A program made the position numbers and the translations under genes. Under the pieces are notes generated by a model. That model was not told where the DNA came from and ran no database searches. It worked only from the letters and a program-made list of their open reading frames with translations. Source: Deltaproteobacteria bacterium (GTDB lineage Bacteria > Desulfobacterota > Syntrophobacteria > Syntrophobacterales > Syntrophobacteraceae). From it: a stretch of 64,000 bases of DNA. Of this stretch, positions 40,889 to 43,862 are shown one piece after another. The stretch is from contig JAJYDE010000002.1 of the NCBI GenBank assembly GCA_021777755.1, forward strand, positions 1 through 64,000. Reading direction: 5' to 3'. How positions within the stretch are numbered: the stretch's first letter is position 1; every line of letters begins with the position of its first letter.

Positions 40889-41575
40889 ATGACGGACGCA
40901 TATGAAAATGGTGCGGGGCAACCCTCGACGGCGAGCCTTCTGTTTTGCCTGTTGTGCGCTTTCCTGGTCTCGGGATGCCTCCATTCGCTTTTCCCGGCGC
41001 AAGCCCCTCCGCGGTATTTTCGGATCGACTACCCTTTCCAGCCATCCAATTGCGCGGCTCCCTTGCCTGCAACCCTGCGCGTCTGGCCTTTCAGCGCCTC
41101 GCCCCCCTATGATCGCGAGCAGATGATCGTGACTTCCCCCGGTCTCCAGGTCGGCTTTTCATCACATTATCAGTGGATCGCCCCTGCCGGGGACATGGTC
41201 GCAAACGCGCTCATGCGTGACCTGTCGGTGGGAAAAGTATTTGAAAGTGTGGCCCCCGCGGGCAGTTCCATGCCTGCGACATATGGTATGAGCGCACAGA
41301 TCTATCGGTTCGATCTCGAAAAAAACCGCACCTCCCCTGGCGCCGTGCTGGACCTTCAAATCAGTTTGTGGCGGGAAAAACCTCGTGACATTATTTTTCG
41401 GAAACATTTCCATTATCGCAGTCCCCCCTTGAAGTCAAACGATCCGGAAGAGTTCGCCGAGGCCATGTCGGCGCTTGTAGCCAAACTCTCCCTGGACCTT
41501 AGAAGCCGCCTGTGCGCTCTCAGGCAAGACAGCTCGCATCCAATCGGTGGCTTACGTGTTCGACCTGGCGTTTGA
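40889..41575 (+). CDS. ABC-transporter auxiliary lipoprotein (PqiC/DUF330-like)
   Basis: A 228-residue predicted lipoprotein; ATG 40889 has AAGGAGG five bases upstream. The hydrophobic segment [14 protein letters not shown] ends in the lipobox VSGC. The rest ([60 protein letters not shown]) resembles ABC-type transport auxiliary lipoproteins of the PqiC class that work with MCE transporters at the outer membrane. It completes the locus 2 transporter. Its last 56 bases overlap the end of the DnaA-like gene on the other strand. Confidence 0.82.
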
Positions 41576-42572
41576 GCTTGCCGTCTTTTTCCATCGATTT
41601 GGTGAGATCGTTTACAGCGTAGAGCACCGAACTGTGGCTCCGCTTGAAGCATTTTCCTATCGATTGAAGAGATTCGCTCGTGTAGCGCCGGCAAAGATAC
41701 ATCCCCACCTTTCGCGCCGCCGCCAGCTCCTTGCGCCTCCTGGGAGACTGCAAGTCCTCCACCGAGACGTTGAAAGTGGCGCACACTATCTGCTGGATGT
41801 GGTCGACCGTGATCTTGGGCAGACGATCCAGCATCGTCTCGGTGAGTTGCCGCGCCAGATCGAGCGTCACAGGCAGTCCCTGGATGTTGGATTTGGCCAG
41901 TATGCCGATCAGGCAACTCTCCAGTTGCCGGATATCACCCATCACACGCTCGGCCAGAAAATGGATGACCTCTTTTGGCAGACGAGCGTTTTCCGAAAGA
42001 GCCTTCTTGCGGATGATCTCTATCCGGGTCGTCAAGTCGGGCGGATCGATGGGGGCCGCCAGGATGCCGCTCAACCTCGACTGCAACTCCTTGCTAAGCT
42101 TCGGGATGTCTCGGGGGAATGCGTTTCCGGTGTAAAGGATTCTTTTGCCCCGGCACATCAGCTCGTCCAGCGTATAGACCAGTTCATCCTGGACTTTTTC
42201 CTTGCCGCTTAAAAACTCGACTTTTTCCAGAATCAGCACGTCGCAGTCATTGCGGAACTTGCTCTTGAATCCTTCGATATTTCCGTTTTTCAACGAAAAA
42301 ATCATCTCGTTTGCAAATTGCTCCGCCGTCACATAATGGATCCTCTGCTCGGGGGCCTGCTTGCGTATGTAGCTGCCAACCGCCTGCGACAGGTGACTTT
42401 TTCCAAGCCCGGTCATGGAAAGAATGTAGGCTGAATTGTTGTAGAGCTGCTGGCCGCACGCCAGCCCCCGCGCGGTGGCAAAAGCCAGCTCATTGGAGGT
42501 CCCCACCACGAACTGATCGAAGGTGAACCGGGGATTGAAAACCGGTCCCGAACGTTTGATGAGATCACTCAT
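41520..42572 (-). CDS. DnaA-like protein, AAA+ and DNA-binding domains (split gene, part 2)
   Basis: A 350-residue protein with DnaA domains III and IV. It starts at the ATG at 42572, two bases after the stop of the domain I gene. The opening [20 protein letters not shown] is DnaA-like. Walker A is [13 protein letters not shown] with Ser in the first Gly position. The Walker B region reads [18 protein letters not shown], with Glu116-Lys117 where DnaA has Asp-Asp, so ATP hydrolysis is probably lost. The C-terminal helix-turn-helix [14 protein letters not shown] replaces the usual RDHTTV DNA-contact residues in part. It is probably a paralogue or regulator of replication rather than the initiator. 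Confidence 0.85.
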
Positions 42573-42574
42573 CC

Positions 42575-42874
42575 CTATCTGCCTGGGAATCGCGGCTTCA
42601 ACCGCTTCCCCCCCGCTTCCTCGGGCTCCGGCGAAACAGAGCTGATCTCGTAGCCCAGCCGCCGCACCGAAGGAAAATATTCCCTCACCACCCCCACAAG
42701 TTTCGGTTCCAACTTCTCCCGCAGCCACTCGATGTGGAACCGGTTCCTACACCCCAGCGCCGCCGTCTCACCTTCCAGCCCCAGAAACTCGATCGATGAA
42801 ACCCATAGATCGTACTGTCCCTTCGACAGGCATGATTGCAACCTGCTCTTGATTTCCTCCCAGATCTGATCCAT
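42575..42874 (-). CDS. DnaA domain I-like protein (split gene, part 1)
   Basis: A 99-residue protein from ATG 42874 with GGAAG upstream. [60 protein letters not shown] matches DnaA_N (domain I, for oligomerisation and DnaB loading). The stop at 42575 lies in what would be the linker (domain II). A shift of frame would join it to the AAA+ part, but the AAA+ part also has its own well-placed ATG right after the stop. So the gene is either split into two cistrons or frameshifted. Confidence 0.8.
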
Positions 42875-43399
42875 GTTTTCTTCCCGCACCCCGAAAGAAA
42901 AAAATAGTTTCCATTTAAGGGCGCAAATGCCCCCAACGCCTACGCCCTCTCCCTGAAACACACAGGAGCTGAAAGTGAAACGGAATTAGAAGATGTCTAT
43001 CTCGGAAAGATTTTGGTTAAGCCCCTCTTGGTGAGATGGGTTTTAGTGAATCCTGTCTGATTCGTCAAAGCTGATCCTGCGAGTTTTGACCCGGAATAGT
43101 GAATTTCGATTCAGGCAAAAATAGATCAAGGATGAGCGCCCCTTAGCCTTTGCCATGCTTTAACTGCCTGAAACAACATAACATTTTAAAAAATCGCCTT
43201 TCCCCTGAAATATCGGAGACCTCCCCGGATCCTGCCTTTCATTAGCAAAAGCTACCGGTTGGTCGATCTCGACATTCCGCCCGTTTTCTCAAATTTTTGC
43301 AAATATCGACCTCCACCAAACCATTCCCGGACCTCCCGCTTCCGCAAACCCCGCCCCGGCACCATATTGCATCCATCACCTCAATCCCCGATTTCGCGG
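42875..43399. other. Intergenic region upstream of the split DnaA-like genes
   Basis: About 525 bases with no supported gene; short plus-strand frames at 43259-43533 have no motifs. I see no run of DnaA boxes (TTATCCACA-type) or AT-rich unwinding element, so I do not call an origin. The promoter of the DnaA-like genes should be here. Confidence 0.5.
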
Positions 43400-43552
43400 C
43401 TAGTCTCCGAACAGCTCCCTTTCAAGGCCGACAATTATCAAAAACCCGGCCAGAAACAGTGCGCAAACGCCCTGAACCGGATGCGTGCCGATCTGTAAAA
43501 AACCGGTCACCCCAATCACGATCCCCGAAATGATCCGAATCATACCAGCCAT
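43400..43552 (-). CDS. 50-residue two-helix membrane protein
   Basis: A short gene with GAAGGGGG eight bases before the ATG at 43552. The product begins MAGMIRIISGIVIGVTGFLQ, has a small hinge (IGTHPVQG) and then VCALFLAGFLIIVGLERELF, ending with GD. Two transmembrane helices with a polar turn and a charged C-terminus make a plausible hairpin membrane protein. I do not recognise a family. It is likely real because of the good ribosome binding site and coherent hydrophobic pattern. Confidence 0.6.
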   Translation of the reverse strand: MAGMIRIISGIVIGVTGFLQIGTHPVQGVCALFLAGFLIIVGLERELFGD

Positions 43553-43822
43553 GTGTCAGTCCCCCTTCACCACTCGACCACAGCAAGTTGCATTCCAGTT
43601 GTGGCTGGAACCCCGCCCGCTCTGGAAGCACTCCCTTGGGCGAAGCGTTCACGCTAATGCGGCCACCCGTGATCCTGACGGTATTTCGTAAAAATTTGTA
43701 TATGATAAAAATTTGGATGCGAGGAGATCATTGATGCGCGGGACAGGCGTGGTCCGCGATCGACGGATAGCGGCCCCGCCGCCCTGCCTTACGGAAGCGA
43801 CACCAGACTTCAAACCGCGCTC

Positions 43823-43856
43823 GGGAGGGCCCGCGGCACCGGCTGCGGCCCCTCCC
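43823..43856 (-). terminator. Stem-loop after DUF3795 gene
   Basis: GGGAGGGCCCGC and GCGGCCCCTCCC form a twelve-base-pair stem with one mismatch and a ten-base loop, directly after the stop of the DUF3795 gene. No clear T run; a probable terminator. Confidence 0.55.
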
Positions 43857-43862
43857 GCGCCT

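Follow-up and report, generated by a model that had tools for sequence, protein, structure and literature searches.

In the model derived from E. coli, the ATP bound to DnaA is hydrolysed after initiation, so that firing is limited to once per cycle (PMC5742627), and roles have been assigned to individual residues (E. coli DnaA numbering, transferred by alignment with that protein, is used throughout). Stable binding of the nucleotide depends on D269 (PMC4245941); R334 is required for ATPase activity, whereas functional initiation complexes form without it (PMC5742627); loss of R281 leaves ATP binding and oriC melting intact but prevents formation of a complex able to support helicase loading, and an R285A protein does not unwind (PMC8213410). 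In domain IV the contacts to bases of the DnaA box have been listed (PMC7561715), and D433, otherwise highly conserved, contacts position 7 (PMC8235120). Searches of the open-access literature found nothing relevant on a degenerate Walker B motif in DnaA, or on Syntrophobacter or Desulfobacterota origins.

The locus described here lies in a window (the whole stretch of DNA analysed) of 64,000 nucleotides from a Syntrophobacteraceae genome. Its DnaA has in common with the canonical proteins of E. coli, B. subtilis and T. maritima the domain order I-III-IV, the fold, and the Walker A Lys, R285, R334, R227, R399 and H434. In contrast to these, the type to which it belongs has EK or ER in place of the Walker B DD, Glu or Asp in place of both Q238 and R281, and neither D269 nor D433; the inferred origin has no TTATCCACA boxes, and dnaA lies away from dnaN. 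An AlphaFold2 model of the domain III-IV protein (mean pLDDT 89.5) found its best structural match in B. subtilis DnaA 8btg (Z 31.5 over 333 residues), at an rmsd of 12.9, indicating that the domain orientation differs. A further match, 8bv3, gave Z 31.1 and rmsd 1.1 over 234, and domain IV matched 1j1v, a complex with DnaA-box DNA, with Z 18.8 and rmsd 0.9 over 93.

Other Desulfobacterota (Desulfocicer, Desulfobacterium, Thermodesulfatator and Desulfofervidaceae) carry an EE/ED-type DnaA, which shares with the window type a Walker A of the form S/A-[DE]-TGLGKS, the replacement of D235 by Glu, a variable sensor 1 and R281, and frequent occurrence as the sole DnaA. Unlike the window type, most of its members have an acid, Glu or Asp, at 236, position 238 is His or Gln, and the genomes that were looked at show no phased TTTTSRACA array; the window protein, with K236 and E238, shares E235 alone among these three positions. 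Hda has the AAA+ fold of the DnaA clade in common with the window protein (3bos, Z 20.8) but is an additional protein without domain IV, whereas the window protein has domains I and IV, does not accompany a canonical DnaA, and scores 79 against TIGR03420 (Hda; cut-off 194.8). E. coli DnaC, of the same AAA+ clade, illustrates the consequences for ATPase activity or coupling when the Walker B acid or the R281 equivalent is lost, through its mutants E170Q, which abolishes ATPase activity, and arginine-coupler R216 (PMC8213410). Those mutants are, however, engineered forms of a helicase loader, whereas the window protein is a natural sole initiator.

The dnaA gene and its interrupted frame

The window gene is read on the minus strand as two pieces (Table 1), the stop of the domain I frame lying two bases ahead of the ATG of the domain III-IV frame, an arrangement noted in the sequence-only reading and borne out by the open reading frames and Pfam matches. 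It is 1355 nt long; five congeneric genes are exactly 1356 nt, each in one frame, and the alignment places the missing base within a G7 run in the unconserved linker. Among the congeners compared, the split frame is found in the window assembly alone; dnaA of another genome (G001) is also broken, but through a run of N. The split is a one-base slip, i.e. a sequencing or assembly error or a very recent mutation, and an evolved split is unsupported. The sequence-only reading had offered just such a linker frameshift as its alternative, and its suggested comparison with relatives gave a divided answer, in that the EK/ER motif is conserved and the split is not.

Domain I, the AAA+ domain III and the domain IV helix-turn-helix belong to one gene, as seen from Pfam matches in both pieces and the uninterrupted congeneric frames; taken separately, the C-terminal piece scores under the TIGR00362 cut-off (330.5 versus 343.9 bits). 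Both halves are under purifying selection, which is strong in domains III-IV, with omega of 0.04-0.08, against 0.14-0.27 for domain I. The neighbours are chromosomal, i.e. mla-type ABC genes and proS, and the mla-type neighbourhood is stable, being also found in family f3 (L299).

Table 1. Features of the dnaA locus in the window (positions count from the first letter of the window)
Feature	Position	Strand	Basis
dnaA N-terminal piece: domain I and part of linker, 99 aa	42575..42874	-	Pfam DnaA_N, E 9.1e-11
dnaA C-terminal piece: domains III (AAA+) and IV, 350 aa	41520..42572	-	Bac_DnaA 2e-40, Bac_DnaA_C 2e-24
Linker G7 run, one base short relative to five congeneric genes	42610..42620 (approximate)	-	alignment; plus-strand cccccccg
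Walker A Lys, K178 equivalent, kept in 41/41	42399..42401	-	alignment
Walker B segment E-K-V-E: D235 to E, D236 to K, Q238 to E	42216..42227	-	alignment
Sensor 1 position, D269 to N	42123..42125	-	alignment
Box VII: R281 to E (42087-42089); arginine finger R285 kept (42075-42077)	42075..42089	-	alignment
Sensor 2 Arg, R334 equivalent, kept in 41/41	41928..41930	-	alignment
Domain IV motif RSHSSV: D433 to S, H434 kept, T435 to S	41622..41642 (bounds approximate)	-	alignment
Region upstream of dnaA, without a DnaA-box-like array	42875..43862	.	canonical and TTTTSRACA boxes, even at one mismatch

Copy number and identity

A search of the window genome (G000; 4.2 Mb, 95.8% complete) with the DnaA domains found one gene with both domains and no canonical DnaA elsewhere. 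Other PF00308 matches were rejected as short AAA+ frames of 273 and 293 aa, and a weak DnaA_C match as a 140-aa frame; at 96% completeness the chance of a second dnaA in this organism is small but not nil. At least one DnaA_C match occurs in 59 of 60 relatives, and within the Syntrophobacterales (families f1-f3) every genome has a strong match and normally one DnaA. All relatives in this order with a readable DnaA, named ones including Desulforhabdus, Desulfoferrobacter and Desulfacinum, have EK or ER, nearly always in their sole DnaA, and none of the order genomes searched, three single-contig ones (G015, G024 and G037) included, has a canonical one. The window protein is thus the sole or principal DnaA of its genome and, judged from sequence, the housekeeping chromosomal replication initiator, in keeping with the rule proposed in the sequence-only reading that the absence of any other dnaA would make this protein the initiator. 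Orthology, fold and sole occurrence place it as DnaA, and it is a variant because two features usually taken as defining, the Walker B acids and the canonical box, are missing.

Extra copies were seen in two places. Desulfacinum hydrothermale (L093, L095) has two DnaA copies, both EK, a third fragment with a piece of DnaA domain IV (L151, G028:C51:3806-3940) and two dnaN copies; this set may reflect either a duplication of recent date or the integration of an element. Genomes of family f5 (L147, L148, L149, L150, L154) have a second, very divergent DnaA with a DD Walker B (DN in L150), a Walker A of EGPPGLGKTH and an altered sensor 2. In one of them (G040) this second DnaA lies directly upstream of dnaN and an EE-type DnaA elsewhere, so that the two types coexist in f5.

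Conserved substitutions in domains III and IV

Alignment and conservation confirm the substitutions first picked out by eye, namely Ser (S52) for the first Walker A Gly, G172, and E116-K117 for the Walker B pair D235-D236; RSHSSV in place of the DNA-contact motif RDHTTV is likewise upheld by the alignment. EK or ER is present in all 41 Lys/Arg-type sequences, from the Syntrophobacterales and one sister family, with Lys at 236 in 32 and Arg in 9; being conserved in 41/41, the motif changes are not due to chance. The same 41 sequences all have Glu 235, Glu or Asp at 238 and 281, and Ser or Ala at 172, never have Asp at 269, and have lost D433, and all retain K178, R227, the R285 arginine finger, the sensor 2 R334, R399, R432 and H434. 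Among 57 other sequences (Desulfobacterota-type or comparison), position 236 is D, E, N or Q and position 238 is H, Q or P, so that an acid at 238 occurs in 41/41 versus 0/57.

In a DnaA tree computed without the Walker B columns, the 41 Lys/Arg-type sequences form one clade (SH-aLRT 99), distributed vertically over three families. Read against this tree, D235 to Glu is the older and widespread change, and the basic 236 with the acidic 238 arose once, at the base of the Syntrophobacterales plus family f6. The 236/238 pairing suggests a functional link, and is a suggestion rather than proof because it represents a single event.

Probable position of the origin and candidate boxes

GC skew was sampled in the three single-contig, complete genomes. 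Its sign changes at approximately 3.32 Mb in G015 (dnaN at 3.326), at approximately 3.36 Mb in G024 (dnaN at 3.354) and at 1.64-1.68 Mb in G037 (dnaN at 1.644; a later sample at 1.84 Mb is negative again). The skew minimum is thus at dnaN, and oriC at dnaA was rejected, dnaA lying 1.67, 2.14 and 0.79 Mb away, respectively. In G024 dnaA (C1, 1.215 Mb) is near the apparent terminus (skew sign change at approximately 1.15 Mb), whereas the gene usually lies close to the origin.

Upstream of dnaN there is a tandem array in 11-12 bp phase; its consensus is TGTYSAAAA, which reads TTTTSRACA on the opposite strand. Once defined on G024, G029 and G037, the pattern was tested on 31 further genomes of the order (G014, G018 and G022 included), which are relatives and not independent of one another; their dnaN-upstream regions contain 29 exact TGTYSAAAA matches, against 1.9 +/- 1.4 in shuffles, and 33 pairs lying 11 bp apart on the same strand, against 1.0. 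Background density is 0.05-0.09 per kb in sampled DNA of G015 and G024. For the canonical TTATCCACA box, the dnaN-upstream regions of the 31 genomes gave 0 exact occurrences and 4 at one mismatch, versus 3.5 in shuffles, i.e. no excess. The array of the window genome itself is short and diverged (GTGTCCACACAGTGTCGGCAAAATGTTTAAAAC; contig C44, L217 / L296, C44:65600-66050). The sequence-only reading had suggested a test for DnaA boxes next to dnaA, near 42875-43400; none were found there, the array being at dnaN on another contig, and regions upstream of dnaA in the window genome and 27 relatives show no enrichment (1 versus 0.9). A phased array was not evident in the sister family f6, which also has EK, or in the EE/ED genomes looked at.

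The box counts, together with RSHSSV for RDHTTV, argue against recognition of TTATCCACA-type boxes. A changed box is plausible because the base-contact residues D433 and T435 are altered; the putative box changes are at positions 3, 5 and 6, and their correspondence to the residue changes is not one to one. The array could instead serve transcription of dnaN.

In some f3 genomes the array forms two clusters, one between about -245 and -215 and the other between about -165 and -130, relative to the dnaN ATG. A 9-mer cluster at approximately 3.489-3.493 Mb of G015 C1 (L231) was rejected as an origin; it is a long array of a repeat that contains CGGTTCATCCCCACCCGCGTGGGGAACAC and looks like a CRISPR array. 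The dnaN of a Thermodesulfatator-type MAG (G066:C115:7220-8323, L346) has one in-frame TAG.

ATP hydrolysis and alternative explanations

From the cited residue roles, ATP should be bound less tightly by this protein, with assembly still proceeding through the R285 finger, and we infer that hydrolysis is poor, lost, strongly altered or at a rebuilt site, with a weak nucleotide memory. ATP binding without normal hydrolysis had been predicted in the sequence-only reading, and the residue pattern supports it. Hda was not found above cut-off in the 12 genomes searched, which makes clamp-Hda inactivation in these bacteria unlikely; a recurrent weak Hda-like match, checked in the window genome (C52), was rejected as a RarA-type AAA+ protein. 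DciA is present and is probably the helicase loader.

The least certain point is the fate of ATP hydrolysis, which may be lost or may have moved to residue 238. An initiator that still hydrolyses ATP, with Glu or Asp 238 as the new base or restoring the charge of the pocket, is the less likely case, though several points favour it: Lys or Arg at 236 is no proof that hydrolysis is lost, the acid at 238 accompanies it without exception and could take over, residue 238 directly follows the Walker B strand in the model, and R285 and R334 are invariant, the latter, whose best-known role in E. coli is in ATPase activity, counting against loss of hydrolysis. Against relocation, all 41 sequences come from one clade, so that the pairing may have arisen only once, changes are also present at sensor 1 and R281, and we know of no acid at position 238 in such a catalytic role among AAA+ proteins.

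Other alternatives concern the gene itself. A truly split gene, making domain I and domain III-IV proteins through translational coupling or slippage, is improbable: each of the two frames is intact and conserved, several congeners have a conserved Met at the position of the ATG at 42572, two bases past the stop, and the G7 run is a possible slippage site, but the assembly is one base short precisely at that homopolymer and the closest relatives all have one 1356-nt frame. The frameshift and the several altered catalytic positions might mark a decaying initiator, i.e. a pseudogene in a genome whose origin fires by DnaA-independent means; we give this almost no credence because the gene is under purifying selection (omega 0.04-0.08), and its functional residues are invariant over the order. 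The sequence-only reading chiefly proposed a paralogue acting as regulator of a canonical DnaA, or else an initiator of the plasmid/phage type. Degenerate motifs, a gene far from oriC and the second, DD-type DnaA beside dnaN in f5 genomes of the same class all fit such a protein, but we regard it as very improbable. The regulator is refuted because closed relatives have no other DnaA, there being no canonical one in the window genome or any order genome and the EK/ER protein being normally the only DnaA of relatives too; a plasmid or phage origin is at odds with the presence of domain I, the strictly vertical rather than patchy distribution across the order, and the stable mla-type chromosomal surroundings.

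Proposed mechanism and significance

We favour, with moderate confidence, the reading of the window protein as a sole, ATP-binding and filament-forming initiator, with hydrolysis lost or altered, acting at an array-type oriC at dnaN, and with the split due to an indel in the G7 run. In the mechanism we propose, ATP-DnaA would assemble at oriC adjoining dnaN, on the 11-bp-phased TTTTSRACA boxes, as a head-to-tail filament on origin DNA formed through the kept K178, R285, R334, AID-1 R227 and domain IV R399/H434. This filament would open the neighbouring AT-rich DNA, with subsequent hand-over to DciA and DnaB, and resetting would occur by nucleotide exchange, dilution or titration and not by Hda-stimulated hydrolysis. 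That initiation throughout the order proceeds without an ATP/ADP-DnaA switch, i.e. with loose ATP binding, no hydrolysis, no Hda-type reset, an origin uncoupled from dnaA and TTTTSRACA boxes in 11-bp phase, is possible, and we advance it tentatively.

The finding is stronger than the sequence-only reading stated: the order as a whole conserves, as its sole initiator, a DnaA in which the Walker B acid has been replaced, and the split is incidental. Cultivated members (Desulforhabdus, Desulfacinum and Desulfoferrobacter) make it directly testable, and the candidate box and origin would allow origins to be called where standard DnaA-box searches find nothing. With the Walker B acid, sensor 1 Asp and box VII Arg lost and the filament residues kept, the clade is a natural experiment on the need for hydrolysis, and this order of sulfate-reducing and syntrophic bacteria has probably lost or rebuilt the ATP 'off-switch' that textbooks describe for DnaA.
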